Of a stretch of DNA of 64,000 bases, positions 16,421-49,138 are shown piece by piece (the first letter of the stretch is position 1; every line of letters starts with the position of its first letter). Origin of the DNA: Proteiniphilum acetatigenes DSM 18083 (lineage in GTDB: Bacteria > Bacteroidota > Bacteroidia > Bacteroidales > Dysgonomonadaceae). A model generated the notes under the pieces. The model did no database searches. It was given only the letters and a program-made list of their open reading frames with translations, and was not told the DNA's origin. The stretch spans positions 248,001-312,000 of the forward strand of contig NZ_KB905693.1 of assembly GCF_000380985.1 (NCBI RefSeq), in the 5' to 3' direction. A program made the position numbers and the translations under genes.

Positions 16421-17089
16421 TTACTGATATCTCTTGACAATTGACAGGCTTTGTCTGCATAATTCGGTTATTTTGTGCCACTCCCCGTTTTTCATTACCT
16501 CTTTTGGGAAAAGGTTGGAGCCCATCCCTACGCAGGTTACCCCTGCCCGGAACCATGCTGACAGATTTTCTTCGGTAGGTTCTACCCCGCCTGTGACCAT
16601 GATCCTCGACCAGGGCATGGGGCCTTTGATGTTTTTCACGAATGAAGGGCCGCCCACGTTACCTCCGGGAAATACCTTTACGATCTCTGCACCCAACTCC
16701 TGTGCCAGACCGATCTCGGAAACCGTGGCGCAACCGGGTGAATAGGCTATCTGCCGGCGGTTACAAACTTTGAATACTTCCGGGTTCAGCAATGGGCCTA
16801 CCACAAAGTTTGCCCCGGACTGGATATAGAGGACGGCGGTAGGGGCATCCACTATGGAACCGATACCCAATATCATCTCCGGACACTCCTTGTCTGCCCA
16901 CTTGACCAGTTCAGCAAACACCTCATGGGCAAAATCACCCCTGTTAGTAAATTCGAATGCCCTGATACCTCCTTCGTAGCACGCTTTCAGTACCTTTTTC
17001 GCTACTTCGGTATCGGAATGGTAAAATACAGGTACAATGCCCGTATCTACTATGGTTTGATAGACTTGCAGTCTTGTAAATTTAGCCAT
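16421..17089 (-). CDS. eda: 2-dehydro-3-deoxy-phosphogluconate (KDPG) aldolase
   Basis: Splits KDPG into pyruvate and glyceraldehyde 3-phosphate; some members also act on 4-hydroxy-2-oxoglutarate. This 222-residue class I aldolase has the acid-base Glu46 in AFEFTNRG and the Schiff-base Lys138 in [26 protein letters not shown] is the phosphate-binding segment. ATG 17089 gives the normal N-terminus; the in-frame extension upstream is discarded. Together with kdgK (17295-18332) it completes the conversion of 2-keto-3-deoxygluconate to central metabolites. Confidence 0.93.
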
Positions 17090-17153
17090 TTCTATATTTA
17101 TTAGAGTAAAGAATAAAGAACAAGGAATAAGGACTTTTAGAGACAAGATTTGG

Positions 17154-17294: not shown

Positions 17295-18332
17295 TCATCT
17301 AACTACTCTTCCCGATCCGTCGCCTTTCATCAATGTTTCCACTTCCGGTACAGTAACCAGGTTAAAATCGCCATAGATGGTATGTTTCAGACAGGAGGCA
17401 GCTACGGCGAAGTCGAGCGCTTTCTGGTCATCATCCTTATAGGTAAGTAATCCGTAGATCAATCCTCCCATGAAGGAGTCTCCTCCGCCCACTCTGTCTA
17501 CGATATGGGTAATATCGTATCTTCTGGATTGATAGAGCTTATCGGAATAGAGGCATCCTCCCCATGTATTGTGATTAGCATTGATGGAACCGCGCAGTGT
17601 AATGATTACCTTCTTCGCGCGCGGGAATTGTTGCATAAGTTGTTTGCAGACCGACTCGAATTCCGCTGCATCTACTTCTCCTGCGGTCTGTTCCACCTGG
17701 AATCCTTCCGGCTTGATACCGAACACTTTTTCGGCATCTTCCTCATTGCCAAGGATGATATCACATCCCTTTACCAGTTCGGGCATGATCTCCGACGCCT
17801 TTTTGCCGTATTTCCAGAGATTCTTCCGGTAGTTGAGGTCACATGAAACGGTCACTCCCAGTTCATTCGCTGTTTGTATAGCTTCAAGGCAGGCGTCGGC
17901 AGCTCCCTGCGAAAGTGCGGGGGTGATACCTGTCCAATGGAACCATGATGCATCTTTGAGTATCTCTTTCCAGTTGAACATCCCCTTTTCTACTTCTGCG
18001 ATAGAGGAATGGGCCCTGTCGTACACAACTTTCGAGGGACGGGCCACGGCACCGGTTTCAAGGAAATAGACCCCCACACGTTCACCGCCGCGCAGTATAT
18101 GCTTCGTACCGACATTCATTTTTCTGAGATCGGAGATACACCATCCGGCTATATCGTTCTCGGGCAGGCGAGTGACAAATTCCACGGGAACACCATAGTT
18201 TGCCAGTGAAACGGCTACATTGGCTTCACCTCCGCCAAAGGTGGCCGTAAGATGGTCCGACTGGATAAATCTTTTATAATCCGGTGTGGCAAGACGCAAC
18301 ATGATCTCGCCGAAAGTTACTACTTTCTGCAT
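17295..18332 (-). CDS. kdgK: 2-keto-3-deoxygluconate kinase
   Basis: PfkB-family kinase phosphorylating KDG to KDPG. The 345-residue protein starts with TFGEIMLRLATPDYKRF, characteristic of KdgK, and has the substrate-side glycine motif TFGGGEANVAVSLA (about 31-44). The C-terminal PfkB signature is DRVGGGDSFMGGLIYG, whose Asp is the catalytic base of the anion-hole motif. It lies between the eda gene and the DUF4861 gene; its start is 1 bp from the end of the DUF4861 gene, so the two are surely co-transcribed. Confidence 0.94.
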   Translation of the reverse strand: MQKVVTFGEIMLRLATPDYKRFIQSDHLTATFGGGEANVAVSLANYGVPVEFVTRLPENDIAGWCISDLRKMNVGTKHILRGGERVGVYFLETGAVARPSKVVYDRAHSSIAEVEKGMFNWKEILKDASWFHWTGITPALSQGAADACLEAIQTANELGVTVSCDLNYRKNLWKYGKKASEIMPELVKGCDIILGNEEDAEKVFGIKPEGFQVEQTAGEVDAAEFESVCKQLMQQFPRAKKVIITLRGSINANHNTWGGCLYSDKLYQSRRYDITHIVDRVGGGDSFMGGLIYGLLTYKDDDQKALDFAVAASCLKHTIYGDFNLVTVPEVETLMKGDGSGRVVR

Positions 18333-18333
18333 C

Positions 18334-23492: not shown

Positions 23493-23513
23493 TGTTGGAT
23501 AGTTTGGTCGTTT

Positions 23514-24701: not shown

Positions 24702-24776
24702 ACGCTATTTGATTAAATCGATAAAATTAATGATTTCTTGCTTGCCAACTTACAGAATGAATAATATAATGTCTGA

Positions 24777-26453: not shown

Positions 26454-26490
26454 CAAGTTAATATTATTCAAGTCATTCATTCTATTATAT

Positions 26491-26560
26491 GTATGCAGCT
26501 AAATCATTCATCTGACAATGTTTCGCGACCCATTAAAAAGCCTCCGATTTAGCTGCATAC
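26491..26560. repeat. Inverted-repeat element, family A copy 2
   Basis: 15-bp perfect inverted repeats GTATGCAGCTAAATC (26491-26505) / GATTTAGCTGCATAC (26546-26560), with AT-rich imperfect extensions outside. The interior holds the core CTGACAATGTTTCGCGACCC at 26512-26531, differing from 12899-12918 at two positions. It lies between the beta-helix lipoprotein and GH28 genes of the pectin operon. It could terminate, process or stabilise the mRNA. Confidence 0.75.
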
Positions 26561-26589
26561 TACATATAATTCACATCAATCGGTTTTTA

Positions 26590-28137: not shown

Positions 28138-28151
28138 ATCATTTCCTGTTA

Positions 28152-29915: not shown

Positions 29916-29927
29916 ATTGATTTATAA

Positions 29928-33577: not shown

Positions 33578-36500
33578 ATGAAAAGAGAGTTGAAGATATT
33601 ATTTCTTTCTTTATGGATGCTCCTTCCCGGCGCAAAGCATATTATGATGTCCCAGCCCGAAGCCTATTTTGTACATTACGGTTCGGAGAATGGCCTGCCG
33701 CAGCATACTATCACAGATATTCTGCAGGACAGTAAGGGATTTATGTGGTTCAGCACATGGGACGGATTGAGTAAGTTCGACGGGTATACTTTCACTACTT
33801 ATCGCCTGCCGACGGGCAATGTCGTTGAGTCGCAGAGTAGCAGGATCGATCATCTTTATGAGGATAAATACAATAATATCTGGATCCTTTCTTATGACAA
33901 TCAGGTATACCGATTCGATGTGCAGACCCGGAAGTTCCTGGATATTAAATCGATTGAAGAATACAGGAAGCGTACATTCACTGCCTCCCGGATCATTCCC
34001 ATGAAAAGCGGCAGGGTGTGGCTTCTATCCGAAAAGGATGGCTGCATCTCCATTGTCGATTCTCTTTTCAATGCAGAGGTATACGATAGCGAAAATCAGA
34101 ATCTGACCGACAATTGGGTTCATACGGTTTTCGAAGATAAGGAAGGGGATTCATGGATCCTGACCAACAGCGGATTGACATTGATACCATCTGACGAAGA
34201 TGTGGCTGTTTCTTATTTTCATCCGGCATCCAATATCGGCAGTCGTCAAGCGAGACCGTTTTTCAGTGTGATGGAGTTCAACGGTGAGTTATGGTTCGGG
34301 TCGAACAAGGGAATTATCTGGAGATATGACCGGAAAAGAGAGCACTTTTATCAGCTTTCTACCGGATTGACCTCCGATATTATTTCCATTCAGGAGATTT
34401 CTTCCGAGAAAATAGTCATCGTTTCCAGCCTTAGCGGTTTTGTCATATATAATACCCACGACGGTAGTATGGAGGCGTATAATGAGTTGACTCTGCCCGC
34501 GATGCCATCAGGAAGGATTTTTACCTGTTATATCGATCAGTCTAAGAATATCTGGATCGATACGGACAGCCTGGGCGTTTCCAAATTTAATCCCTATACC
34601 CGTAGATATACTCATTTTACACCTTATATAGAAAGTACGGAAAGAAATGTATTTCCTCCCAATTTTTTTATTTTCGAAGATAAGGAAGAGCGCCTTTGGG
34701 TACATCCGAGAGGAGGAGGTTTTTCTATATACGACAGAATGGAGGATAAGCTTATTCCTTTTTATAATGAGCCCTTCTCTCCAAAATGGATGTTTTCCAA
34801 TATGATGCATTCTGCCTATTCCGACAAGCAGGGTAACTTGTGGATGTGTACCCGGTCGCACGGATTGGAAAAGGTGATCTTTTATGATGATTCCCAGTTC
34901 AAATCAATATTACTCAATAATAATGTGAATTCGACGGTCAGTAACGATGTGCGTCCTATTTTCGAGGATTCTTACAATAATATCTGGGCGGCGACAAAAG
35001 ATGGTAAAATCCACATATATGACGTCGAATTGAATGAGATGGGTATCCTGAATAACCGGGGAGAAATCGGCAAAGGTTTGCCTTTAAACGGGATCGCTTA
35101 CTGCATCACCGAAGACTCGGAGCAGAACATCTGGATTGGTACCAAAGGGGAAGGAGCATACAAGCTGGTTAGAAAAGATTATCGTAATGCTTTTGAGATA
35201 TTCCACTTCAAGAATGATCCTTCCGATAGTTATTCTTTGAGTAACAACAGCGTATATTCTATTTTTGAAGACAATAGGGGGAATATCTGGATCGGCACTT
35301 TTGGAGGAGGTATTAACCTGATCCCTTACGGAAGTAATGGTCTAAAAGTAATCAACCATCGGAATGAACTCTCTGGTTATCCGTCCGATCTGGGCGATCA
35401 GGTGCGCATTATCCACAGTGACCGACATGGAAATATTTGTGTGGGAACGACCCTCGGATTCATCATGTTTGATACAGTTTTTGAGAAGCCAGACGAAATA
35501 GACTTCAGGATATATGTAAGGAATAATCAGCATTCCGGTTCTATTGGAGCCAATGATGTGATAGATATATGTACGACAGAGTCGGGTGAGACCTTTATCG
35601 GTACTTTCGGAGGAGGCATCAGTAAAATTAATGAGACCGATAACAAGGGTTTTCCGCTTTCTTTTGAAACATACGGATCAGCACATGGATTACCATCCAA
35701 TATTATCCTTTCCCTACAGGAAGATAATAATGGCAATATCTGGATCGGGAGTGAAGGAGGACTGACAAAATTCAATCGTAAGGAACAAACATTTGAAAAC
35801 TTCAGTGAGATCAAACGATTGATGAAACGGAACAATTTCTCTGAAAATTCGAGGTATCGTTTATGTGACGGTAGAATGCTTTTCGGCTATTCACACGGGA
35901 TGGTTATTTTTAATCCCGAGAATGTGAGAAATAACACCTTTAGTCCCTATCTTGCACTTGTGCAATTCAAACTGTTCAACCGGAACTTACCCATATCCCC
36001 TGAAGGGCCGCTCAAAAAAGATATCAATATACAGGATAGGATAGTGCTAAAATATAATCAGAATTTTATCGGGATAGAATTTGCCGCCCTTGATTATATC
36101 GATCCGGAAAATATACTCTATATGTATAAGATGGAAGGATTCGACAAGGAGTGGATCTATGCCGGCAATCAACGGACAGCTAACTATACCAATCTTTCGA
36201 GAGGAAAATACTTATTCCGTGTTAAATCGACCAATAGTGACGGGGTATGGGCCAGCAACGAACGGGTTCTTACGATAGAGGTTTTGCCTCCATTCTGGGC
36301 TACCGGGTGGGCCTATCTTATCTATTTTTTAGTGGCCATCCTGGTTTTGTATATCACATTTAGAATACTCTATACATTTTACAAGATGCGGAATAAGATC
36401 GTGTTGGAGAAACAGGAGTCGGAGATTAAAACACGCTTTTTTACCAATATTTCGCATGAAATTCGTACCCCATTGACAATGATCGTTTCTCCTATTGAAA

Positions 36501-38020
36501 ATCTGTTACAAAGTAAAACCACGCCGCAGCCGGTAAAAGATCAGCTTGCTCTTGTGTCGAAAAATACGAATAGATTGCTGAAGATGGTGAACCAGATCCT
36601 CGACTTTCAAAAAATGGCACAATCTCCGCTTACGGTAAGTAGAGTCGAAATAGCTTCTTTTGTGGAAAATATATATAATAATTATATTGGAAATTCAGAG
36701 ATAAATAATATCGATTATAATTTTGAAAACAGGGTCGGTATTCAGACGGTATGGATTGATACCGAGGCGGTTGAAAAAATTATTGTCAATCTGCTTTCCA
36801 ATGCTTTCAAATACACTCCCTCCGGAAGATCCATCCATGTGTCCGTGTATAATCAAAACGAGGAAGTAGCCCTACGGGTAAAAGATACCGGAGTGGGTAT
36901 TTCAAAAGATAAACAGGAGCGTCTGTTCAGAAGGTTTGAATCGTTTAATGAACATAAGAGCAACCCGAGTACCGGAATCGGATTATCTATCGTGAAAGAA
37001 ATGGCCGATAAGCACCGTGCCAGGGTAATAGTGGAGAGTGACGAGCAGAAAGGAAGCGCTTTTACCATTTTGTTTAAGACAGGGATCTCCCATTTTGGAA
37101 CCGATGTGATCATTGATGAAAGTTCAGTGCCCGCCTTATCGGAGGAAACAAAAGGAACGGAGGTCGTAGCAGAAGAGTCCGCTCATGCCTGTATATACGA
37201 AGAGATCAACGATAATCCTTCTGTATTGATTGTGGAAGATGACGAGGATCTAAGGCAATTTATCCGGTCGGTCCTTGAAAATGAATATGAGGTACATGAA
37301 GCCTCGGATGGAAAAGAGGGTTTTGAAAAAGCATTGGAACTGATCCCCGACTTCATTGTGAGCGATATTATGATGCCGGAAATCGATGGAATAGAGTTTC
37401 TCGAAAATATCCGGAAAAATATCCTGACGAGCCATATCCTCTTTTTACTGCTTACGGCAAAAACAACTTTGGACAGCAAGTTAGAAGGATTTGAACATGG
37501 TGCCGATGAATACATTACCAAACCCTTTAGTGTGGCATATTTTAAAATAAGAGTAAAAAACCTGTTACAACGAAGAAGTGAATTGCAGACTTATTATAGA
37601 AATAGGAGTAATGTAGCGCTACAAATCCCGATGAAACAGGAGAATGGTGCAAATAATACCCATGTGAATGATAAGGATCTGAAATTTATCAGATCTGTCA
37701 ACTCTTTTATTGAGAAACATTTGGGTGATAATGATTTTGTAATAGAAGATATGGCGATTGAAACAGGTATGAGCCGCACCTTGTTTTTCAGGAAATTGAA
37801 AGGACTCACAGGATTGGCCCCTGTAGAATATGTGCGTGATTTCCTGATGCAGCATGCGGCGGAACTGCTTCGGAACGGAGATTATACAGTAAAGGAGATA
37901 GCCTACAAGGTAGGAATGAATGACGCTAAATATTTTACCAGATGTTTTAAAAGGAAATATAACATCACGCCAAGCAATTATAAAAAGAGATACACAGAAC
38001 ATTCATCGATGCAAATGTAA
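33578..38020 (+). CDS. Hybrid two-component system regulator (HTCS)
   Basis: Single-protein sensor and transcription activator of glycan loci, 1480 residues in the inner membrane. Order: signal/anchor (1-25), periplasmic beta-propeller repeats with NIWI/DSKGFMWF motifs (about 30-770), Y_Y_Y domain (about 835-905) and a transmembrane helix (about 910-931). Then come HisKA with H-box NISHEIRTPL (His960), HATPase with NLLSNAFKYTPSG, DTGVGIS and STGIGLS, a receiver domain (about 1212-1330; phospho-acceptor Asp1263 in SDIMMPE, Lys in ITKPF), and an AraC-type HTH (about 1370-1475). All catalytic residues are present. The divergent position from susC implies control of the pectin operon by an oligogalacturonide signal. 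Confidence 0.95.
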   Translation: MKRELKILFLSLWMLLPGAKHIMMSQPEAYFVHYGSENGLPQHTITDILQDSKGFMWFSTWDGLSKFDGYTFTTYRLPTGNVVESQSSRIDHLYEDKYNNIWILSYDNQVYRFDVQTRKFLDIKSIEEYRKRTFTASRIIPMKSGRVWLLSEKDGCISIVDSLFNAEVYDSENQNLTDNWVHTVFEDKEGDSWILTNSGLTLIPSDEDVAVSYFHPASNIGSRQARPFFSVMEFNGELWFGSNKGIIWRYDRKREHFYQLSTGLTSDIISIQEISSEKIVIVSSLSGFVIYNTHDGSMEAYNELTLPAMPSGRIFTCYIDQSKNIWIDTDSLGVSKFNPYTRRYTHFTPYIESTERNVFPPNFFIFEDKEERLWVHPRGGGFSIYDRMEDKLIPFYNEPFSPKWMFSNMMHSAYSDKQGNLWMCTRSHGLEKVIFYDDSQFKSILLNNNVNSTVSNDVRPIFEDSYNNIWAATKDGKIHIYDVELNEMGILNNRGEIGKGLPLNGIAYCITEDSEQNIWIGTKGEGAYKLVRKDYRNAFEIFHFKNDPSDSYSLSNNSVYSIFEDNRGNIWIGTFGGGINLIPYGSNGLKVINHRNELSGYPSDLGDQVRIIHSDRHGNICVGTTLGFIMFDTVFEKPDEIDFRIYVRNNQHSGSIGANDVIDICTTESGETFIGTFGGGISKINETDNKGFPLSFETYGSAHGLPSNIILSLQEDNNGNIWIGSEGGLTKFNRKEQTFENFSEIKRLMKRNNFSENSRYRLCDGRMLFGYSHGMVIFNPENVRNNTFSPYLALVQFKLFNRNLPISPEGPLKKDINIQDRIVLKYNQNFIGIEFAALDYIDPENILYMYKMEGFDKEWIYAGNQRTANYTNLSRGKYLFRVKSTNSDGVWASNERVLTIEVLPPFWATGWAYLIYFLVAILVLYITFRILYTFYKMRNKIVLEKQESEIKTRFFTNISHEIRTPLTMIVSPIENLLQSKTTPQPVKDQLALVSKNTNRLLKMVNQILDFQKMAQSPLTVSRVEIASFVENIYNNYIGNSEINNIDYNFENRVGIQTVWIDTEAVEKIIVNLLSNAFKYTPSGRSIHVSVYNQNEEVALRVKDTGVGISKDKQERLFRRFESFNEHKSNPSTGIGLSIVKEMADKHRARVIVESDEQKGSAFTILFKTGISHFGTDVIIDESSVPALSEETKGTEVVAEESAHACIYEEINDNPSVLIVEDDEDLRQFIRSVLENEYEVHEASDGKEGFEKALELIPDFIVSDIMMPEIDGIEFLENIRKNILTSHILFLLLTAKTTLDSKLEGFEHGADEYITKPFSVAYFKIRVKNLLQRRSELQTYYRNRSNVALQIPMKQENGANNTHVNDKDLKFIRSVNSFIEKHLGDNDFVIEDMAIETGMSRTLFFRKLKGLTGLAPVEYVRDFLMQHAAELLRNGDYTVKEIAYKVGMNDAKYFTRCFKRKYNITPSNYKKRYTEHSSMQM

Positions 38021-38241: not shown

Positions 38242-39648
38242 ATGAAAAGTTTTATTCATGAAGATTTTTTGCTTCAGACAGATGCAGCGAAAGAGTTGTA
38301 TCATGAACATGCAAAAATGCAACCTATTATTGACTACCATTGTCATCTGAACCCTGAGTATATCGCCAAGGATTATGCTTTCGATAATCTGAGTCAGATA
38401 TGGCTCGAAGGCGATCACTACAAGTGGCGTGCCATGCGTACTAACGGTGTGGAAGAGAAGTACTGCACAGGTAAAGATGTCTCCGATTGGGAAAAATTTG
38501 AGAAATGGGCCGAAACGGTACCCTACACTATGCGGAACCCATTGTATCACTGGACTCATCTGGAATTAAAAACTGCTTTTGGTGTTGATAAGCTTCTGAA
38601 TCCCGAAACGGCAAAGGAGATATTCGACAAATGTACCGGGCAACTGCGTACACCGGAATTCTCTGCCCGGGGATTGATGAAAAAATTTAAAGTGGAGGTG
38701 GTTTGCACTACCGATGATCCTGCCGATAGCCTGGAACATCATCTTGCGCTGAAAGAGGAGAAATTCAATATTAAAGTTTTACCGACCTGGCGTCCCGATA
38801 AAGCCATGGCTGTGGAGAATCCGCAAGAGTATCGTGCATACCTGGAAAAACTATCTGAGGTGTCGGGAGTGACCATCAACCGGTTCAACGACCTGATCGA
38901 AGCGCTTCGTAAACGACACGACTTCTTTGCCGCTGCAGGCTGTAAACTTTCCGACCATGGTATCGAGGAATTTTATGCCGAACCCTATACACAAACCGAA
39001 ATTGAGCAGATATTCAATAAAGTGTATGGTGGACAAGAACTGGGAAGAGAGGAGATCCTGAAATTCAAATCGGCCATGCTCTATGAGGGTGGCGTGATGG
39101 ATTGGGAAAAAGGATGGACGCAACAATTCCATTACGGGGCTATTCGCAACAACAATACCCGGTTGTTTAACCAAATTGGCCCGGATACCGGTTTCGATTC
39201 TATCGGTGATTTTACCATAGCAAAAGCGATGAGCCGTTTCTTTGACCAGCTGGACAAAGACAACCGATTGGCCAAAACCATAATTTATAACCTGAACCCC
39301 AGGGATAACGACCTTATTGCTACTATGATCGGTAACTTTCAGGACGGATCGGTCGCCGGAAAAATGCAATTCGGTTCCGGATGGTGGTTCCTCGATCAAA
39401 AAACAGGGATGGAAGCACAGATGAATTCTCTCTCTAACCTGGGACTGTTGAGCCGCTTTGTAGGAATGCTGACCGATTCGCGCAGCTTCCTCTCTTATCC
39501 GCGTCATGAGTACTTCCGGCGGATATTATGTAATCTTATTGGGAATGATGTCGAGCAGGGACTGCTTCCTGTTTCGGAAATGAAATTCCTTGGGGAGATG
39601 GTGGAGAATATATCCTATAACAATGCAAAGCAGTTTTTTAATTTTTAA
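38242..39648 (+). CDS. uxaC: Glucuronate/galacturonate isomerase
   Basis: Isomerises D-galacturonate to D-tagaturonate and D-glucuronate to D-fructuronate. The 468-residue amidohydrolase-fold protein is close to the usual 470. The metal-binding motif DYHCHLNP (His33, His35) is near the N-terminus, and the UxaC-specific segments WLEGDHYKWRAMR and CTTDDPADSLEHH are present. SYPRHEYFRRILCNLIGN is at the C-terminus. It is the first gene of a plus-strand series of uronate genes and ends 10 bp before uxaE. Confidence 0.96.
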   Translation: MKSFIHEDFLLQTDAAKELYHEHAKMQPIIDYHCHLNPEYIAKDYAFDNLSQIWLEGDHYKWRAMRTNGVEEKYCTGKDVSDWEKFEKWAETVPYTMRNPLYHWTHLELKTAFGVDKLLNPETAKEIFDKCTGQLRTPEFSARGLMKKFKVEVVCTTDDPADSLEHHLALKEEKFNIKVLPTWRPDKAMAVENPQEYRAYLEKLSEVSGVTINRFNDLIEALRKRHDFFAAAGCKLSDHGIEEFYAEPYTQTEIEQIFNKVYGGQELGREEILKFKSAMLYEGGVMDWEKGWTQQFHYGAIRNNNTRLFNQIGPDTGFDSIGDFTIAKAMSRFFDQLDKDNRLAKTIIYNLNPRDNDLIATMIGNFQDGSVAGKMQFGSGWWFLDQKTGMEAQMNSLSNLGLLSRFVGMLTDSRSFLSYPRHEYFRRILCNLIGNDVEQGLLPVSEMKFLGEMVENISYNNAKQFFNF

Positions 39649-39658
39649 TATCAGAATC

Positions 39659-40918
39659 ATGAAATTAGGAAAATATAGTATAGGAGTAGGAGATAGGTTC
39701 ACTCATCAGGGAAAAGCGCAGTTGAGGGCTATCATGAAAGCGAATGAAAAGGGAGGTCTGGATATCAGTCCGGTATGGAATAAATCCAACAGGGAGCATA
39801 TCTATGTCGGTACACAACCGGCAGATACCCGCAGAGAGGCCGACGAGGCTGTCAATGCCCTGGACTTCAAAGGACTCTATTTTGTGGATGCCGATCATAT
39901 CAATCTCAGTACGGTAGCCAAATATGTAGAGGTATCCGATTTCTTTACGTTGGATGTGGCTGCATTTATCGGTAACGAGAGCAGCCAGGGAGATGTAGAT
40001 ACTTTTGTGGCTTCCTGCCGGAAATATATGGGACAGTTACATATCCCCGGTATGGAGGAGCCTTTGAATGTAACTGAAGAGTTGTTGCGCGATATCGCCG
40101 CCAAATTCCTTGCTGCCGCACAGCACGCTTCGGAGATCTACGCCTATCTGAAAAAGGAGAAGGGTGAAGGCAACTTCATCACGGAAGTTTCCATGGATGA
40201 GGTGGAGTCGCCGCAGACACCTGTTGAGTTGCTTTTTATTTTGAAGATGCTCGCCGACAAAGGTGTGCCTGCCCAGACAATTGCGCCCAAATTTACCGGA
40301 CGGTTTAATAAAGGAGTCGATTATGTGGGCGATCTGAATCAGTTTGCCAAGGAGTTCGAAGAGGATGTGCTTGTGATCGATTTTGCAGTGAAAGAGTTCG
40401 GTTTGCCGGAAGAGCTGAAACTGAGCGTTCACTCGGGAAGCGATAAATTTTCCATCTATCCGATCATGGCTGGTATCATCGCTAAGCATGATAAAGGATT
40501 GCATCTGAAAACCGCTGGTACGACCTGGTTGGAAGAGGTGATAGGTTTAGCTTTGGCAGGAGGAGAAGGTCTGGTATTGGCAAAAAATATCTATGAGAAT
40601 TCATATAACAGGCAGGAAGAGTTGTGTGGCCCTTATGCCGATGTGATTGATATCGACGGTTCGAGACTACCTTCCGTAGAAGAAGTCAATAGCTGGACGG
40701 GAGAGAAGTTTGCCAATACGCTCCGGCATATACAGGGACATCCTGATTACAATTCCAATTTCCGCCAGCTCATTCACGTAGCCTATAAAGTGGCTGCGGA
40801 AATGGGAAGCAAATATACCGATTTGCTCGTCAAATATGCCGATGTGATCGGCACATGTGTGGAAGAGAATATTTATGACAGGCACCTGAAAAGACTGTTT
40901 AATATCGGTAAGGAGTGA
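39659..40918 (+). CDS. uxaE: Tagaturonate/fructuronate epimerase
   Basis: A 419-residue protein of the UxaE family, first described in Thermotoga, which interconverts D-tagaturonate and D-fructuronate at C3. Recognised by the N-terminus KLGKYSIGVGDRFTHQGKAQL, the TFL-type segment VDADHINL, the TIAPKFTGRFNKGVDYVGD region and LSVHSGSDKFSIYP. The start ATG 39659 replaces a longer in-frame extension overlapping uxaC. Because UxaE merges the galacturonate route into the fructuronate route, no altronate enzymes (UxaA/UxaB) are needed, and none are present. Confidence 0.9.
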   Translation: MKLGKYSIGVGDRFTHQGKAQLRAIMKANEKGGLDISPVWNKSNREHIYVGTQPADTRREADEAVNALDFKGLYFVDADHINLSTVAKYVEVSDFFTLDVAAFIGNESSQGDVDTFVASCRKYMGQLHIPGMEEPLNVTEELLRDIAAKFLAAAQHASEIYAYLKKEKGEGNFITEVSMDEVESPQTPVELLFILKMLADKGVPAQTIAPKFTGRFNKGVDYVGDLNQFAKEFEEDVLVIDFAVKEFGLPEELKLSVHSGSDKFSIYPIMAGIIAKHDKGLHLKTAGTTWLEEVIGLALAGGEGLVLAKNIYENSYNRQEELCGPYADVIDIDGSRLPSVEEVNSWTGEKFANTLRHIQGHPDYNSNFRQLIHVAYKVAAEMGSKYTDLLVKYADVIGTCVEENIYDRHLKRLFNIGKE

Positions 40919-40943
40919 GATTGAAAACGACTGATTTTAATGA

Positions 40944-41008
40944 ACTATTTTGTTAAGCCAAATGAGCAGAACCAAGCTTGCTTGAGTTATGCCATGGCGA
41001 AAAATAGT
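40944..41008. repeat. Dispersed repeat related to the promoter repeats
   Basis: Inverted ends ACTATTTT (40944-40951) / AAAATAGT (41001-41008) flank GTTAAGCC ... GAGCAGAACCAAGCTTGCTTG ... ATGCCATGGCG. It matches 8528-8590 over its whole length and the core of 7486-7554. No -7 box is seen toward the downstream gene. Confidence 0.65.
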
Positions 41009-41097
41009 CTAACTTTAGTGAAGAAGATTTTACGGGAAATAAGATTAAAAAATAAAATGGGAGGCCTATTTTTGCCGGGTCATTAAATCAATAAATT

Positions 41098-41910
41098 ATG
41101 TACAAATTATTTGATATTAAAGGAGAAGTGATCGTCATCACGGGAGGAACCGGAGTATTGGGTTCTTCAATGGTAGAGTATCTGGCCGCACACGGTGCAA
41201 AAGTGGCGGTGTTGGCGCGAAACAAGGAGAAAGGTGATGAACTGGTGCAAAAAGTGAAAGCGGCCGGAGGGGATGCAATGTTCCTTCAAACCGATGTAAC
41301 CGATGAGTTTGTCCTGAAGCAAAATGCGGAAGAGATCGCTGCCAGATACGGCAGGATAGATGTGCTGATCAATGGCGCCGGTGGAAATATGCCGGGTGCT
41401 ACTATCGGTCCCGATAATACCATCTTTGACCTGAAAGCAGATGATTTCCGGAAGGTGGTCGATCTGAACCTGATGGGAACGGTTGTCCCCACACTGGTTT
41501 TTGCCGAATATATGGTCAGGGAGAAAAAGGGGAATATCGTGAATATCTCTTCTGCATCGGCTTTACGTCCGCTGACACGTGTCGCAGGATATGGAGCAGC
41601 AAAAGCAGCAGTGACCAATTTTACCAAATATATGGCAGGCGAGATGGCTATTAAATTCGGAGAGGATTTTCGTGTGAATGCGTTGTGTCCCGGCTTTTTC
41701 ATTACGGAACAAAACAGGGCGTTGCTCACCAATCCCGACGGGTCTTATTCTGCACGGGGTAATACTATTATAGCACACACCCCTTTCCGCCGATTCGGAA
41801 ATCCTGAAGACCTGTTAGGTACGCTCCACTATCTGGTAAGTGACGCTTCGAAATTTGTAACGGGAACGGTGGCTATCGTCGACGGAGGCTTCGATGCGTT
41901 CAGTATTTGA
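41098..41910 (+). CDS. SDR-type D-mannonate oxidoreductase (fructuronate reductase)
   Basis: A 270-residue short-chain dehydrogenase predicted to reduce D-fructuronate to D-mannonate. Cofactor motif TGGTGVLGSSM (about 15-25), NGAGGNMPGAT (about 96) and the S-YxxxK site in GYGAAKAAV (near 164) are intact. The long GGNMPGATIGPDNTIFDL insert after NGAGG is typical of the YjmF/UxuB-like SDR group. Its position after uxaC and uxaE supports fructuronate as substrate. The classical UxuB belongs to another fold, so I give no symbol. The next classical enzyme, mannonate dehydratase UxuA, is absent from the window. Confidence 0.88.
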   Translation: MYKLFDIKGEVIVITGGTGVLGSSMVEYLAAHGAKVAVLARNKEKGDELVQKVKAAGGDAMFLQTDVTDEFVLKQNAEEIAARYGRIDVLINGAGGNMPGATIGPDNTIFDLKADDFRKVVDLNLMGTVVPTLVFAEYMVREKKGNIVNISSASALRPLTRVAGYGAAKAAVTNFTKYMAGEMAIKFGEDFRVNALCPGFFITEQNRALLTNPDGSYSARGNTIIAHTPFRRFGNPEDLLGTLHYLVSDASKFVTGTVAIVDGGFDAFSI

Positions 41911-42028
41911 TTGGATTTGGAATTTCATAATTTCAAGATTCCAGAATTCAATGCTTCATTGTCAATCGTCAATTATCCATTGTCAATTGAGTAAATCATC
42001 AAATTAATAAATCATCACATCAACCCAA

Positions 42029-43108
42029 ATGTCTATAACATTAAAAAAAGAATTCAAATATTCATTGATAGTACCTACCAGTATGGGAGTACGTATTACG
42101 CCGGTAGATGCACAGCCGGTGCAGAGTACCAATATGTTTCGCATGCAGGCGACCAGTGCCGAGACCAATGTGGCAAGCATCTCTTCCTACCTTGGACTTC
42201 CAGTGAAGGTCCTCACCACCTTCGTGAAAAATAGTCCGATCGCTGCTTTCATTAAAGCCGATCTCAGAGCACGGAATATGGAATATGAGGGGCCTGAGGT
42301 GCCCCAGGGCGATCCCTGGGGATATCGTCATCAGTTTAATATTGCCGACAGTGGTTTCGGATTGCGTGGGCCGCGGGTACAGAACGACCGGGCAGGTGAA
42401 GTGGGAAAAACACTGAATGTAAAAGATTTTGATCTGGAACGAATCTTCGGCCGGGAGGGGGTACAAATTGTACATCTTTCCGGTCTTATTGCGGCGCTTT
42501 CTCCCGATACAAGCAACTTCTGCCTCGAGATTGCACGTTATGCCAAAAAGCATGGTACGGTCATTTCTTTCGACCTGAATCACCGGGCTACTTTCTGGAA
42601 GGGCCGGGAGAAAGAACTGAAAGAGGCTTTTACAGAGATTGTTTCCCTTTCCGATATTGTTATCGGTAATGAAGAGGATTTTCAATTGTGTCTCGGTATT
42701 GAAGGACCGAAAGCAGGGGGTAAGAATATTGAAGGCACACTGGATGCTTTCAAAGGGATGATCCTGAATGCGAAGAAAGCGTTTCCTCATGTTTCGGTCT
42801 TTGCCAATACGTTGCGTGAGGTAATCAGCGCCAATGAACATCTCTGGGGCGCTATTGTTTATGAAAACGGGAACTGGCACGAAGCACCGTTGCGTAGGAT
42901 CAACGTGATGGATCGTATCGGTGGTGGTGACGGTTTCGTAGGTGGATTGCTTTATAGTATCCTGAAAGGGATGGAACCCGAAAAGTGGGTGCAGTTTGCC
43001 TGGGCGAGCGGTGCACTGGCGACTACCTTCCTGACAGATTATGCCCAGCCGGCCGATGAGGAGGTGATATGGAGCATCTGGAAAGGCAATGCGAGAGTGG
43101 TTAGATAA
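42029..43108 (+). CDS. PfkB-family sugar (aldonate?) kinase
   Basis: A 359-residue ribokinase-fold kinase. C-terminal PfkB signature DRIGGGDGFVGGLLYS with the catalytic Asp; SFDLNHRATFW and VIGNEEDFQLCLGI resemble KDG-kinase segments. The N-terminal half differs strongly from the kdgK at 17295-18332: the GGGEANVAV loop is replaced by ATSAETNVASISS, and there is a long QGDPWGYRHQFNIADSGFGLRGPRV insert. The window already has a good kdgK, so this enzyme may use another acid, for example gluconate. It is placed between the mannonate oxidoreductase and gnd. Confidence 0.85.
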   Translation: MSITLKKEFKYSLIVPTSMGVRITPVDAQPVQSTNMFRMQATSAETNVASISSYLGLPVKVLTTFVKNSPIAAFIKADLRARNMEYEGPEVPQGDPWGYRHQFNIADSGFGLRGPRVQNDRAGEVGKTLNVKDFDLERIFGREGVQIVHLSGLIAALSPDTSNFCLEIARYAKKHGTVISFDLNHRATFWKGREKELKEAFTEIVSLSDIVIGNEEDFQLCLGIEGPKAGGKNIEGTLDAFKGMILNAKKAFPHVSVFANTLREVISANEHLWGAIVYENGNWHEAPLRRINVMDRIGGGDGFVGGLLYSILKGMEPEKWVQFAWASGALATTFLTDYAQPADEEVIWSIWKGNARVVR

Positions 43109-43134
43109 TGGACAATTGAAAATGGAAAATGGAA

Positions 43135-43261
43135 AATGGAGAATGGACAGTTGACAATGTTTGTCCTGATTTTGAATTGAAACAACGTTCGGCGGAGCCA
43201 AAATCGACGTAGTCAATTAACAATCGCCGTAAGTACAAATCTTGAATCTTGAATTTTGAAT
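43135..43261. repeat. Modular spacer repeat upstream of gnd
   Basis: Words in order: 43135-43154 (identical to 44753-44772), 43200-43233 (inverted match to 17154-17187, 31/34) and 43237-43261 (inverted match to 17205-17231 and 1848-1874). The last word runs into the gnd start codon. Confidence 0.8.
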
Positions 43262-44737
43262 ATGGAATATAATAATATAGAAATGAATAAAAAAGCAGAT
43301 ATCGGATTGATCGGATTGGCCGTGATGGGTGAAAATCTGGTCTTAAATATGGAAAGTAAGGGCTATACGGTAGCCGTGTTCAACCGTACGGTTGACAAAG
43401 TAGACGCGTTTGTCAACGGACGGGGAAAAGGGAAAAATTTTATCGGTGCACACTCCCTGCAGGAGTTGGTAGCATCCTTAGAACGTCCCCGCAAAGTGAT
43501 GATGCTGGTAAAAGCGGGTAAGCCTGTGGACGATTTTATCGAACAACTCATCCCGCTGCTTGAACCAGGTGATATTATTATCGACGGCGGGAACAGCCAT
43601 TTTCCTGACACCATCCGCAGAACGAAATATGTAGAGAGCAAAGGATTTCTCTATATCGGTACTGGCGTTTCCGGCGGTGAAGAGGGAGCCCTCAAAGGAC
43701 CTTCCATGATGCCGGGCGGATCGCCGGAAGCGTGGCCTCATGTGAAAGAGATCTTCCAGGCGGTCGCTGCCAAAGTCGATGGGGGTGTTCCCTGCTGCGA
43801 CTGGGTGGGCGAGAACGGCGCCGGCCACTTCGTGAAGATGGTCCACAACGGCATCGAGTACGGCGATATGCAGATTATCAACGAAGCATATCACCTGATG
43901 AAAGAACTGCTCGGCATGGATGCTTTTGAGCAGCATGAAGTATTCAAAAGGTGGAACAGCGGCGTGCTGGATTCCTACCTGATCGAGATCACCACAGATA
44001 TCATGGCGTATAAGGATGAGGATGGAAGTCCATTGGTAGAAAAAATCCTTGATACCGCAGGCCAGAAAGGTACCGGTAAATGGACTGCTGTGACAGCGCT
44101 CGATCTGGGTATTCCGCTTACACTGATCGGCGAGTCGGTCTTTTCGCGTTGTCTCTCGGCTCAAAAAGATCTGAGGGTAAAAGCTTCGGAAGTCATCTCC
44201 GGAAAAAAATCCGGTTTCAAAGGTGATAAACAGCAATTCATCAATGACCTGGAGAAAGCGCTTTATGGCGCCAAAATTATCTCCTATGCACAGGGTTACG
44301 ACCTGATGATGGACGCAGCCAAAGAATATGACTGGAACCTTAATTACGGAGGTATCGCCCTGATGTGGCGCGGTGGTTGCATTATCCGCTCCCGTTTCCT
44401 GGGAGATATCAAAAAGGCGTTCGATAACAATCCTTCGTTGGAAAACCTGTTGCTCGATGGTTTCTTCAAAGAAGCAGTGCTATCGGCAGAGGAAAGCTGG
44501 CGCAGAGTTTGTGCCACGGCTTTGCAGAACGGAATTCCCGTGCCGGCACTTACTTCGGCGTTGTGTTATTTCGACGGGTTCCGCAACTCACGTCTCCCGG
44601 CAAACCTTTTGCAGGCACAGCGTGATTACTTCGGTGCACACCAGTATGAACGGATAGACAGACCTCGCGGTGAGTTCTTCCATACCGACTGGACAGGACG
44701 CGGGGGAAATACGGCCTCTACCACGTATGATGTTTGA
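43262..44737 (+). CDS. gnd: 6-phosphogluconate dehydrogenase, decarboxylating
   Basis: Oxidises 6-phosphogluconate to ribulose 5-phosphate and CO2. About 491 residues, full length. NADP-fold start GLIGLAVMGENL, IDGGNSHFPDT, GVSGGEEGALKGPSMMPGG, catalytic Lys/His region GAGHFVKMVHNGIEYGDMQ, and the C-terminal AQRDYFGAHQYERID are all present. The start is taken as ATG 43262; ATG 43283 (MNKKADIGLIG) is equally plausible and closer to the usual length. It is unusual in a uronate cluster, where the expected enzyme would be mannonate dehydratase; see the LarA homologue downstream. Confidence 0.95.
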   Translation: MEYNNIEMNKKADIGLIGLAVMGENLVLNMESKGYTVAVFNRTVDKVDAFVNGRGKGKNFIGAHSLQELVASLERPRKVMMLVKAGKPVDDFIEQLIPLLEPGDIIIDGGNSHFPDTIRRTKYVESKGFLYIGTGVSGGEEGALKGPSMMPGGSPEAWPHVKEIFQAVAAKVDGGVPCCDWVGENGAGHFVKMVHNGIEYGDMQIINEAYHLMKELLGMDAFEQHEVFKRWNSGVLDSYLIEITTDIMAYKDEDGSPLVEKILDTAGQKGTGKWTAVTALDLGIPLTLIGESVFSRCLSAQKDLRVKASEVISGKKSGFKGDKQQFINDLEKALYGAKIISYAQGYDLMMDAAKEYDWNLNYGGIALMWRGGCIIRSRFLGDIKKAFDNNPSLENLLLDGFFKEAVLSAEESWRRVCATALQNGIPVPALTSALCYFDGFRNSRLPANLLQAQRDYFGAHQYERIDRPRGEFFHTDWTGRGGNTASTTYDV

Positions 44738-44752
44738 TAATTGATAATTGAC

Positions 44753-44772
44753 AATGGAGAATGGACAGTTGA
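44753..44772 (+). repeat. Spacer word shared with the pre-gnd spacer
   Basis: 20-nt exact copy of 43135-43154 in the 147-bp spacer between gnd and larA. The rest of the spacer is simple-repeat text of the TTGATAATTGACAATGG and CTTTTCACTATTAATT kind, without coding signal. Confidence 0.7.
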
Positions 44773-44884
44773 GAATTGAGAATTAATATCCCAAATATTA
44801 AATCCGACTTCCCAAATCCTACATCCCCAATTTTTCACTATTAATTATTCACTTTTCTAATTATTCACTTTTCACTTAAAAAGG

Positions 44885-46168
44885 ATGATCTATTACGAAA
44901 ATGGTTCTCCGACGACTGCTCTTTCTCATGATGATCTGAGGAGAGGATTGTATGAAGCACTGGAGAAATTAGGCGAACGGCAGAAAGTTCTTGCCGTTCC
45001 GCCCGATTATACCCGCCTGCCCAGTCGTGCCGGTGAACTTACCGAGATCGCATGGGGATATTATGATGAGAAACTTACCGACATCCTCCCTGCTTTAGGT
45101 ACCCATACCCCCATGACCGAAGGACAGATCGATCATATGTTCGGGAAGACCCCTAAAGGACTTTTTCGAGACCATGACTGGCGGAATGATGTAATCACGT
45201 TGGGTGAGGTGCCGGCGGAATACATACGTGATATCTCGGAAGGGAAAGTCGATTTCTCCTGGCCGGCACAAGTAAACAGGTTGCTGGTAGAAGGCGGTTT
45301 CGACCTTATCCTATCTATCGGACAGGTAGTACCCCACGAAGTGGTGGGGATGGCCAACTACAACAAGAATATCCTGGTCGGGACCGGCGGGAGTGAAGGG
45401 ATCAACAAGAGTCATTATATAGGGGCAGTATATGGTATGGAGCGGATGATGGGTAAATCAGATACTCCGGTAAGGCGTGTATTTAACTATGCGACTGAAA
45501 AGTATTTGAAAGAACTGCCAATCGTGTATGTCCTGACTGTAGTAGGGGTAAATTCCGAAGGAGTGCAGCAGACCTACGGTCTGTTTGTGGGGGACGACTT
45601 AGAGGTATTCGACCGTGCAGCCCGGCTCTCTTTGCAGGTCAACTTCGTGATGGTGGAAAAACCATTGAAGAAGGTGATTGTATGGCTCGATCCTACCGAA
45701 TTTAAAAGCACATGGTTAGGGAATAAATCGATCTACCGCACACGGATGGCTATTGCCGACCGAGGTGAACTGATCGTACTGGCTCCGGCATTGAAAGAAT
45801 TCGGAGAAGACAAAGCTATTGATTTGCTGATCCGTAAATATGGCTATTTCGGAACGGATTATACTTTGAAAGCGGTATCCGAAAACCAGGAACTCAGGAA
45901 TAATCTGGGTGCAGCAGCACATCTTATTCACGGATCTTCTGAAGGGCGTTTTTCTGTCACCTACTGTCCCGGTAAAGAGGCCTGGAATCTTACGCGGGAA
46001 GAGATAGAGAGCGTCGGTTTCCATTGGGGCGATATCGATGAGATTATGCAGAAGTATGATCCCTTGCGCCTCAAAGAGGGCTTTAATATGCTCGACGACG
46101 GAGAGGAGGTCTACTATATTTCAAGTCCCGCACTCGGTTTGTGGGCACATAAAGACCGGTTTGCATAA
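44885..46168 (+). CDS. LarA-family nickel-pincer racemase/epimerase
   Basis: A 427-residue protein of the lactate racemase (LarA/DUF2088) superfamily, which uses a nickel-pincer nucleotide (NPN) cofactor to invert 2-hydroxy acids. Residues matching LarA of Lactiplantibacillus: Asp41/Arg44 in PDYTRLP, His74 in GTHTPMTEG, His151 in QVVPHEVVG, Lys161 in NYNKNIL (cofactor-linking Lys) and His177 in NKSHYIG (Ni ligand). The 151-161-177 spacing equals that of the reference (174-184-200). The context suggests an aldonate 2-epimerase, for example D-mannonate to D-gluconate. Cofactor genes larB/C/E are not in this window. It sits 26 bp before the next gene. Confidence 0.88.
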   Translation: MIYYENGSPTTALSHDDLRRGLYEALEKLGERQKVLAVPPDYTRLPSRAGELTEIAWGYYDEKLTDILPALGTHTPMTEGQIDHMFGKTPKGLFRDHDWRNDVITLGEVPAEYIRDISEGKVDFSWPAQVNRLLVEGGFDLILSIGQVVPHEVVGMANYNKNILVGTGGSEGINKSHYIGAVYGMERMMGKSDTPVRRVFNYATEKYLKELPIVYVLTVVGVNSEGVQQTYGLFVGDDLEVFDRAARLSLQVNFVMVEKPLKKVIVWLDPTEFKSTWLGNKSIYRTRMAIADRGELIVLAPALKEFGEDKAIDLLIRKYGYFGTDYTLKAVSENQELRNNLGAAAHLIHGSSEGRFSVTYCPGKEAWNLTREEIESVGFHWGDIDEIMQKYDPLRLKEGFNMLDDGEEVYYISSPALGLWAHKDRFA

Positions 46169-46194: not shown

Positions 46195-47616
46195 ATGACA
46201 ACGAGAAGAGAATTTATCAGAAATGCGGCTCTGGCATCAGCAGGGCTTGCTATGGGCGGCATATCGACTAAAATGAATGCCGCAAGTTACAGCAGGGTTG
46301 TAGGTGCCAATAAGAAGGTGAACCTGGCCCATATCGGTATCGGAAACAGGGGATGGGAAATCATTAATGATTTCGACAAGACAGGATTGGCCAACGTGGT
46401 CGCCCTTTGCGACGTGGATTTGGGTGCCGAACATACAAAGAAGGCGCTCGACAAGTTCCCGAAAGCAAAACGTTTCAAGGATTTCCGGGAAATGTTCGAC
46501 AAGATGGGCAATGAGATTGAGGCGGTAGCTATTGCCACACCCGATTTCGCACATTTTCCCGCAGTGATGATGTCGATGGCCGAAGGCAAACATGTTTACG
46601 TGGAAAAACCCTTGACACGTACTTTTCATGAATCGGAACTGCTCCTGAAAGCGGCAAAGAAGTATCCGAATGTAGTCACTCAGATGGGTAACCAGGGCCA
46701 TTCGGAGGCCAACTATTTCCAGTTTAAAGCCTGGAAAGAGGCAGGTATTATCAAAGATGTGACGGCTGTCACGGCGCATATGAACAACCCGCGTCGCTGG
46801 CACGGATGGGATCCCAATATCAAAAAATTTCCTGCTGCCGAACCTATCCCCGAAACGCTGGATTGGGACATATGGTTGATGGCACAGCGATACCATGACT
46901 ACAACAAAGATTTCCATTACGGGCAGTGGCGCTGCTGGTATGATTTTGGGATGGGAGCCCTGGGAGATTGGGGAGCACATATTATCGACACGGTGCACGA
47001 ATTCCTCGATCTGGGTCTACCGGAAGAAGTCACTCCATTGAAACTGAAAGATCATAACGATTATTTCTTCCCGATGTCGAGCACCATAGAATTCAAATTT
47101 CCGGCACGGGGCAACATGCCGCCGCTGGTTATCACCTGGTATGATGGTCTGGACAATATCCCGTCTGTACCCGAAGGATACGGCGTATCGGAACTCGATC
47201 CCAATATCCCCTCCGTGGGCGGCGGACAGATACAGCCGGCCAAATTGAATCCGGGTAAAGAGATCTATAGTAAGGAACTTACCTTCAAAGGTGGATCGCA
47301 TGGCAGCACGCTAAGCATCATTCCGGAAGAGAAGGCGAAGGCTATGGAGAAAGACCTCCCCGAAGTGCCGAAGAGCCCTTCCGACCATTTCGCCAATTTC
47401 TTACTGGCTTGCCAGGGCAAGGAGAAAACACGTTCCCCGTTTGAAATATCTGCCCCATTAAGTCAGGTGTTTTGCCTGGGTGTAGCAGCACAGAAATTGA
47501 ACCGGAAAATCGTGTTCGACCGTGAAACCAGGCGGGTGACCAACGATGCCTTTGCAGATGCTTACCTCACCGGAGAGCCACCCAGAAAAGGATGGGAAGA
47601 TTTTTATAAGATTTAA
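46195..47616 (+). CDS. Secreted Gfo/Idh/MocA-family oxidoreductase (Tat signal)
   Basis: A 473-residue NAD(P)-dependent sugar oxidoreductase with a twin-arginine signal (MTTRREFIRNAALASAGLAM), so exported folded to the periplasm. The Rossmann motif HIGIGNRGWEI is near residue 47 and the family EKP motif has Lys138. A C-terminal alpha/beta domain contains RCWYDFGMGALGDWGAHIIDTVHEFL. Such exported members probably keep NAD tightly bound and oxidise or isomerise sugars, including 3-keto formation on glycosides. It is followed by a DUF1080 protein, a recurrent pairing. Confidence 0.87.
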   Translation: MTTRREFIRNAALASAGLAMGGISTKMNAASYSRVVGANKKVNLAHIGIGNRGWEIINDFDKTGLANVVALCDVDLGAEHTKKALDKFPKAKRFKDFREMFDKMGNEIEAVAIATPDFAHFPAVMMSMAEGKHVYVEKPLTRTFHESELLLKAAKKYPNVVTQMGNQGHSEANYFQFKAWKEAGIIKDVTAVTAHMNNPRRWHGWDPNIKKFPAAEPIPETLDWDIWLMAQRYHDYNKDFHYGQWRCWYDFGMGALGDWGAHIIDTVHEFLDLGLPEEVTPLKLKDHNDYFFPMSSTIEFKFPARGNMPPLVITWYDGLDNIPSVPEGYGVSELDPNIPSVGGGQIQPAKLNPGKEIYSKELTFKGGSHGSTLSIIPEEKAKAMEKDLPEVPKSPSDHFANFLLACQGKEKTRSPFEISAPLSQVFCLGVAAQKLNRKIVFDRETRRVTNDAFADAYLTGEPPRKGWEDFYKI

Positions 47617-47779: not shown

Positions 47780-49138
47780 ATGATAAAAAAAATAGTAATA
47801 TCAATTTTGGCAGTGATAGTAACTGTTTCGGCATGGGCACAGGAGCCGAAATGGGAAAACCTGTTCAATGGGCGTAACCTGCGCGGATGGGAAAAACTGA
47901 ACGGTACTGCAGAATACAAAATACAGGACAATTCCATTATCGGTATTTCCAAAATGAATACCCCCAACACTTTTCTTGCCACCAAAAAGGTGTATAACGA
48001 TTTTATCCTGGAATTTGAGTTCAAGGTCGACGACGGTCTGAATTCCGGTGTCCAGTTTCGCAGTAACAGCCTGAAAGAGTACCAGAACGGTCGTGTCCAT
48101 GGTTACCAGTTCGAAATCGATCCTTCCCCCAGGGCATGGACGGGAGGTATCTATGATGAAGCGCGTCGCGGATGGCTCTACCCAATGAACTACAATCCGG
48201 AAGGGCAGAAAGCATTCAAAAACGGAGAGTGGAACAAAGCCCGTATCGAGGCTATTGGCAGCTCTATCCGTACATGGGTGAACGGCGTTCCCTGCACCGA
48301 CCTGCTGGATAATACCACACTATCGGGTTTTATTGCCCTGCAGGTGCATTCTATCGGTAATGCCGACCTGGAAGGAAAGACTGTCGCCTGGCGCAATATC
48401 AGGATACTTACACAAGATCTGGAGCGGTTTAGAACCCCTGAAAATGATAAAGTGAAGCAGATCAATACAATCGCCAATACTATCTCTGAACGCGAAGCGG
48501 CGGAGGGATGGAAGCTGCTGTGGGACGGCAAGACCACCGAAGGATGGCGAGGTGCGAAATTGGATCATTTTCCCGAAAAAGGATGGTCTATCGATAACGG
48601 TGTGCTGAAAGTGCATAAAAGCGGCGGGGGCGAATCTACCAACGGAGGCGATATCGTTACCACCCGCCCCTACAAGAACTTTATGCTGAAAGTAGATTTC
48701 AGGATTACTGAAGGTGCTAATAGCGGGATTAAATATTTTGTGGATACCAACCTGAATAAAGGGGAAGGATCGGCCATCGGTTGTGAATTCCAGATACTGG
48801 ACGACAGGCGGCACCCCGACGCGAAGCTGGGTGTTGAGGGGAACCGGACATTGGGTTCACTCTACGACCTGATACCTGCCCCGAAAGATAAACCTTTTCG
48901 CAACGGATTCTTCAACACCGCTATGGTGGTTGTCAAGGGGAGTCATGTGGAACACTGGTTGAACGGCGTGAAAATTATTGAATACGAGCGGAACAACCAG
49001 ATGTGGGAAGCCTTGGTGAACTTCAGCAAATACAAGGACTGGCCCAATTTCGGCAATGCCGAAGAGGGATTGCTCCTCCTGCAGGATCATGGCGACGAGG
49101 TGTGGTTCCAGAATATCAAGATTAAAGAACTGGAATAA
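47780..49138 (+). CDS. Secreted protein with two tandem DUF1080 domains
   Basis: A 452-residue exported protein (signal peptide ending near AWAQ). It has two concanavalin-like DUF1080/3-keto-disaccharide-hydrolase domains: about 22-212 ([48 protein letters not shown]) and about 235-450 ([57 protein letters not shown]). Members act on 3-keto-glycosides made by Gfo/Idh/MocA-type oxidoreductases, which fits the gene just upstream. Whether both domains are catalytic is unknown. It ends the plus-strand cluster before a terminator. Confidence 0.88.

Follow-up and report, generated by a model that had tools for sequence, protein, structure and literature searches.

We have analyzed a six-gene cluster in the bacterium Proteiniphilum acetatigenes DSM 18083, together with a stretch of 64,000 nucleotides around it (contig NZ_KB905693.1, positions 248,001 to 312,000) that we refer to as the window. 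The assembly (37 contigs, 4.78 Mb) is estimated at 100% completeness and 0.51% contamination. The cluster spans positions 38242-46168 of the window. Its genes follow one another on the + strand in the order uxaC, uxaE, a short-chain dehydrogenase/reductase (SDR) mannonate oxidoreductase, a divergent PfkB kinase, gnd and a homologue of LarA. These identities had been proposed in a first-pass annotation of the sequence, and both the open reading frames (ORFs) and the family models confirm them.

Five of the six genes reach the curated cut-off of a specific family. The uronate isomerase gene uxaC (38242..39648) matches PF02614 with 682 bits and NF002794 with 671 bits (cut-off 387), and uxaE, encoding tagaturonate/fructuronate epimerase (39659..40918), matches PF16257 with 182 bits (cut-off 27), with no NCBIfam match. 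The SDR D-mannonate oxidoreductase (41098..41910), which would have the role of a fructuronate reductase, reaches 370 bits with NF006132 (cut-off 281). The decarboxylating 6-phosphogluconate dehydrogenase gene gnd (43262..44737) gives 752 bits with TIGR00873 (cut-off 427), and the LarA homologue (44885..46168) gives 646 bits with NF052594 (cut-off 500). The exception is the PfkB kinase (42029..43108), a candidate gluconate or mannonate kinase that matches PF00294 with 74 bits. For uxaE and gnd the ORF list offers slightly earlier TTG starts, and we have adopted the internal ATG codons at 39659 and 43262. The order of the six genes suggests that they are co-transcribed.

We consider it probable that the cluster is the branch of a pectin utilization locus that serves galacturonate, leading through the LarA homologue, the PfkB kinase and Gnd to ribulose-5-phosphate. 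That locus occupies 14890-33143 on the − strand, and the uxaC operon and a hybrid two-component regulator diverge from it. UxaC and UxaE would convert galacturonate into tagaturonate and then fructuronate, which the SDR would reduce to D-mannonate. The LarA homologue would then invert the configuration at C2 to give D-gluconate, with hydride moving to and from a nickel-pincer nucleotide (NPN) tethered to a lysine. Phosphorylation of D-gluconate by the divergent PfkB kinase would generate 6-phosphogluconate, and decarboxylation of this by Gnd would yield ribulose-5-phosphate. The reducing equivalent spent on fructuronate would be regained at the Gnd step. Such a route would take galacturonate to pentose phosphate without net redox change (PMC6978723), which is of interest for fermentation, and this Bacteroidota operon would supply candidate genes for it, among them a PfkB-type kinase and a group-18 epimerase.

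The first-pass annotation knew of no described pathway joining these steps, a statement that does not hold. As related in PMC6978723, Rodionova et al. (2012) proposed, from Thermotoga maritima, that galacturonate is used by conversion of mannonate to gluconate and the successive action of gluconokinase and 6-phosphogluconate dehydrogenase. The activity of the T. maritima epimerase GntE2 was later shown in vitro, and is described as probably allowing mannonate to enter the pentose phosphate pathway (PMC7583248, published in 2020); gntE is also listed in the Thermotoga hexuronate regulon (PMC7953866). The mannonate-gluconate-pentose phosphate pathway is therefore not new. As these sources present it, the proposed T. 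maritima chain resembles the one considered here, running from UxaE and fructuronate reductase through a LarA-family GntE and a gluconokinase step to 6-phosphogluconate dehydrogenase and the pentose phosphates. However, the T. maritima epimerase belongs to group 20 and LarC and LarE are present in that organism, whereas in P. acetatigenes we find an epimerase of group 18, a PfkB-type kinase, and no larB, larC or larE.

The LarA homologue

By the curated cut-off of NF052594 ("nickel-dependent putative hexonate epimerase", NPN_18_hexonate) the protein is a member of LarAH group 18, and the match extends over positions 3-410 of the 411 in the model. It is 96% identical to its counterpart in Proteiniphilum sp. 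X52. Enzymes of groups 19 and 20 have been measured converting mannonate to gluconate, and a hexonate substrate has been hypothesised for group 18 (PMC7583248).

We compared the protein with its relatives in the best 80 of at least 564 confirmed loci, giving an alignment of 81 rows with the window included. Residues that NPN-dependent LarA enzymes use for catalysis and for binding of NPN are kept in every row, as D41, R44, H74, H151, K161 and H177. These correspond to LarA D72, R75, H108, H174, K184 and H200, as mapped through the T. maritima structure 4nar and the equal spacings of H174, K184 and H200, rather than by alignment of L. plantarum LarA itself. In the region of LarA K298, Y284, R285, R287 and M288 are identical in all 81 rows and the stretch contains no lysine, in a part where the alignment to 4nar is loose.

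The positions that correspond to LarA F175, F176, W358 and T359 carry E152, V153, A345 and H346 in 81 of 81 rows. This mapping was made through T. maritima GntE2 (PDB 4nar, E = 7.5e-36), which itself has E, S, A and H in the alignment. The combination E, V, A, H at the four specificity positions is described as usual for gluconate epimerases (PMC11770544).

The LarA homologue is under selection, with a ratio of nonsynonymous to synonymous substitution (dN/dS) well below 1 wherever it could be computed. For the window against loci L003, L004 and L005 the values are 0.137, 0.054 and 0.047; against L006, L008, L009 and L012 synonymous substitution is saturated. Two pairs of loci from genomes in which larE and larC were not found (see below) gave 0.025 and 0.022, and a pair from genomes that have them (L078/L081) gave 0.032.

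The order of the two central steps might also be reversed. The PfkB kinase would then make 6-phosphomannonate, which the LarA homologue would epimerise to 6-phosphogluconate. Both activities have been reported for cell extracts of Lactobacillus suebicus, which phosphorylate mannonate and then epimerise the product, although the genes were not assigned (PMC6978723). In that account L. suebicus resembles the present case in joining the upper isomerase pathway to 6-phosphogluconate by means of a C2 epimerisation; it differs in that phosphorylation of mannonate comes first, with no genes identified for the two new steps. A kinase that matches no equivalog, clustered with an epimerase of group 18, would be consistent with such an order. 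However, the characterised GntE enzymes use free mannonate, to judge from PMC7583248 and PMC11770544, and the usual GntE signature is kept in the window enzyme. We therefore regard initial phosphorylation as unlikely.

Company of the kinase and dehydrogenase genes

The presence of the other cluster genes in the 80 related loci was scored by tblastn, as a match covering over half of the query. PfkB was found in 71, gnd in 68, the SDR in 67, uxaE in 29 and uxaC in 25, many of the contigs ending early. Where more than 3.5 kb is available upstream, 63 of 65 loci contain a PfkB gene of at least 60% identity, and gnd is present at the same level in all 42 loci that have more than 3.5 kb upstream and more than 5.5 kb downstream. 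The company of PfkB and gnd with the LarA homologue is more than chance. The two loci without PfkB (L037 and L077) are contigs of a single Chromatiales bin (Ww343), where uxaE and gnd are divergent from the LarA homologue. In these the LarA homologue is 75-76% identical to that of the window while uxaE and gnd are 55-66% identical, and L077 also has a PfkB gene of 34% identity; transfer or mis-binning is a possible origin of this pattern.

We also searched a sample of 395 genomes drawn over the whole class, that of P. acetatigenes included. Outside its own genome the group-18 LarA homologue was found in none of these, and among the PfkB matches listed none exceeded 36% identity. On these counts, and with no close PfkB from other genomes among the matches listed for the class sample, the kinase tracks the epimerase and gnd, and not the 2-keto-3-deoxygluconate (KDG) branch.

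The genome does encode a conventional exit from mannonate. There is no uxuA in the window, and in this respect the first-pass annotation was right. The sole match of the genome lies on another contig (C9:852-2006), where it scores 433 bits with TIGR00695 (cut-off 200) and is thus a true mannonate dehydratase gene; its neighbors are a SusD-like gene and an SDR that shares 63% identity with that at 41098..41910. True absence of UxuA from the genome is ruled out by this one good copy, which is the very circumstance that the annotation had named as weakening its proposal.

Two genes that it did not mention lie in the pectin locus, on the − strand. A KDG-kinase-like PfkB gene (KdgK, 17295..18332) encodes a protein with 31% identity to the PfkB kinase at 42029, and Eda, an aldolase for 2-keto-3-deoxy-6-phosphogluconate and 2-keto-4-hydroxyglutarate (16421..17146), scores 370 bits with NF005499 (cut-off 275). 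UxuA elsewhere, with KdgK and Eda in the window, would make up a parallel exit of the Entner-Doudoroff type, so that the route through gluconate would be a branch and not a replacement.

In the related loci these functions were counted by clustering over 79 loci, L030 being left out, with one member of each family checked by hidden Markov model. UxuA-family genes occur in 8 of these loci, a kinase of the KdgK type in 12 and Eda in 10. Some relatives have both types of kinase within one locus (L048, L051, L053 and L056).

Two other sets of enzymes bear on the fate of gluconate. The first-pass annotation had pointed to gntK as a gene to look for. No FGGY-type gluconokinase exceeds the cut-off in the genome (TIGR01314, 648.55 bits; five matches), the highest score, 145 bits, belonging to a protein that fits the xylulokinase model best; no search was made for GntK of the shikimate-kinase fold. 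The second is an SDR beside KduI in the pectin locus (19662-20453, − strand), with a score of 516 bits for gluconate 5-dehydrogenase (NF005488, cut-off 369) and 231 bits for kduD, under the cut-off of 339. From its position it is probably KduD; it could instead be another enzyme acting on gluconate.

A number of observations weigh against the route through gluconate. UxuA is encoded elsewhere in the genome, adjoining an SDR of its own, and a UxuA-family gene is present in those 8 of the 79 related loci. The SDR that passes the gluconate 5-dehydrogenase cut-off offers another possible fate for gluconate. The divergent PfkB kinase stays below every equivalog cut-off, and both the named models nearest to it and its best solved relative resemble KDG kinases; its best KDG-kinase equivalog scores 99 bits against a cut-off of 440, a test that separates weakly because the KdgK of the window also falls under it, with 212 bits. 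We found no measured activity for any group-18 enzyme in the literature consulted. The dN/dS of 0.137 between the LarA homologues of the window and L003 is two to three times that of the SDR, PfkB and gnd (0.052 to 0.058), chiefly by virtue of a low dS (0.14). Finally, searches of the genome turned up no LarB, LarC or LarE.

An alternative is that the cluster supplies the ordinary Entner-Doudoroff exit. The distant UxuA would take the mannonate, the divergent PfkB kinase would serve as another KDG kinase, and the LarA homologue would act on a different substrate or convert gluconate to mannonate. The true uxuA, the KDG-kinase-like relatives of the kinase and the linkage of UxuA-family genes in some loci are what such an arrangement would lead one to expect. 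However, a KdgK-like kinase and Eda are already present in the window, gnd has no role in an Entner-Doudoroff exit, and the divergent kinase keeps company with gnd and a LarA homologue that the class sample otherwise lacks, as it lacks a close PfkB among the matches listed. This explanation we judge to be quite improbable. The route from mannonate to ribulose-5-phosphate remains the best reading given the conservation of PfkB and gnd in the relatives, the membership of group 18 and the GntE signature. The chain proposed in the first-pass annotation is thus favored by the sequences on these three counts, and weakened by the uxuA on another contig and by the larB, larC and larE result.

Cofactor genes in the host and its relatives

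In the P. acetatigenes genome LarC gave no matches (PF01969, 0), and the only protein with an AIRC domain, as sought for LarB, is PurE. Four weak matches to the LarE model TIGR00268 are GuaA (GMP synthase), QueC, ArgG (argininosuccinate synthase) and NadE (NAD synthase). Since the matches belong to these five proteins, hidden larB, larC and larE genes are ruled out for this genome. The first-pass annotation had called for this search, and its outcome goes against the proposal and leaves the supply of cofactor unexplained.

We extended the search to 50 genomes that carry one of the 80 loci, picked for isolates and long contigs, accepting LarC at E values up to 0.001 and LarE at up to 1e-30 and over the cut-off. 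LarC was found in 10 of the 50 carriers and LarE in the same 10; the remaining 40 gave neither, LarB not being searched for in this survey. Metagenome bins without completeness figures make up 30 of the 40 negatives, while the genome of the window is rated complete. Among 13 records without a metagenome tag, three are positive (Maribellus maritimus, Mariniphaga sediminis and Mangrovibacterium marinum) and 10 negative. Isolates that gave neither LarC nor LarE include Proteiniphilum sp. X52, Mariniphaga anaerophila and a Draconibacterium. As controls, T. maritima matched both LarC and LarE. Corynebacterium glutamicum matched LarC, and gave nothing for LarE at 1e-30, which hints that the maturation of NPN may differ in other organisms as well.

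Four loci were opened among the ten positive genomes, and in each larE-, larC- and larB-like genes lie side by side (one verified by hidden Markov model). In L092, L098 and L100 the order larE-larC-larB is followed by a membrane protein, which we take to resemble a nickel/cobalt transporter; that of L092 gave no NCBIfam match at 1e-20. The group-18 enzyme is the sole match to PF09861 in 8 of the 10 positive genomes, the other two having 2 (G417) and 4 (G425). NPN is therefore plausibly made for the group-18 enzyme in those eight, and the idea that these larE, larC and larB genes serve only other LarA proteins is countered by the same observation. However, PF09861 is weak on group 18 (about 27 to 42 bits) and has no match in C. 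glutamicum, the species named as the source of GntE1, so that other types of LarA may be overlooked. The metagenome bin of L006 (G398), in which neither LarC nor LarE was matched, also has another LarA match, which is the stronger one at 194 bits; an extra match in G395 is under the cut-off, at 20 bits.

LarC is enriched in the carriers compared with the class sample (10 of 50 against 1 of 395, Fisher p = 1.4e-9), a comparison confounded by kinship, since eight of the ten positives are named Prolixibacteraceae (two have no family name) and the 395 genomes span the whole class. On a quick tree of the enzymes, in which 13 of 48 inner branches are starred, the positives are scattered. They require 8 changes, close to the mean of 9.4 on shuffling of the labels, and 61 of 500 shuffles were as low. 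The clade that contains the window has no positives among its 17 members, window included. No column of the alignment separates the enzymes of genomes with larE and larC from those without (10 against 41 rows).

Absence of these genes might signify that the LarA homologue is idle or has been repurposed, with no cofactor made. Both the result for the P. acetatigenes genome and the 40 of 50 carriers lacking LarE and LarC matches would fit this. Against it stand the residues for NPN binding, which all 81 rows retain, the low dN/dS where computable, and the finding that no column divides the enzymes according to their genomes, and we consider it highly improbable. With active-site residues kept and selection maintained, the lack of larB, larC and larE does not refute activity. 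It implies that NPN comes from outside, is made by a route not yet recognized, or has been replaced.

On the sequence evidence, the LarA homologue most likely functions with NPN, and the majority of the carriers examined most likely obtain NPN or a precursor outside the LarB/LarC/LarE scheme. The supply might take the form of salvage, a second biosynthesis or a different cofactor. We see even chances that the LarA-family enzyme is active without LarB, LarC and LarE either because NPN behaves like a vitamin in Bacteroidota, most carriers of the epimerase not making it and instead taking it or a precursor up from neighbors, or because there is a second, unrecognised biosynthesis.

This cofactor-orphan distribution is the unexpected result of the analysis, and the part worth following. 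An enzyme under selection where the known NPN synthesis is not found poses a directly testable question, whether cells share the cofactor or have a second route to it, and this is weightier than the metabolic route itself. In the portions of the literature that could be searched we found no mention of larA homologues in genomes without larB, larC and larE, nor of such a pattern for group 18 in general, which is not proof that there is none. The opposite case, larBCE without larA, is noted in PMC11796402.

Neighboring genes and spacers

Downstream of the LarA homologue on the + strand are genes for a Gfo/Idh/MocA oxidoreductase (46195..47616, PF01408) and a protein resembling 3-keto-disaccharide hydrolase (47780..49138, PF06439 in two stretches). 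By clustering, each of these two gene families occurs in 12 of the 79 loci. On the same clustering, 36 of 79 loci have a Gfo/Idh protein near the LarA homologue, and 43 of 79 have a PdxB-like 4-phosphoerythronate dehydrogenase there. In L028 (10260-12498) and L031 (10389-12602) genes of both kinds lie between the LarA homologue and gnd; the corresponding coordinates in L072 are 11431-12558.

Upstream, a hybrid two-component sensor/regulator (33578..38020, + strand) has Reg_prop, Y_Y_Y, HisKA, HATPase_c, Response_reg and HTH_18 domains. Its position between the pectin locus and the uxaC operon suggests a role as regulator. The pectin locus contains genes for GH28, GH88, KduI, the SDR, the KdgK-like kinase, Eda and a major facilitator superfamily (MFS) transporter, together with genes that were labeled SusC/SusD-like from the sequence. 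The MFS transporter (14890..16356, − strand; PF07690 178 bits, TIGR00893 172 bits, below the cut-off of 395) may be an importer of uronates or aldonates.

Terminator-like sites number 13, compared with 10.6 expected. Sigma-70-like sites on both strands number 35 against 19.7 expected, for a type of promoter not expected to apply in this host. The spacers of the cluster contain no match to a Bacteroidota-type promoter pattern. The spacers before gnd (43102-43158) and before the LarA homologue (44734-44790) have in common degenerate repeats with a period near 7 nucleotides, in the form of four 43-nucleotide copies with a spacing of 14 within each spacer.

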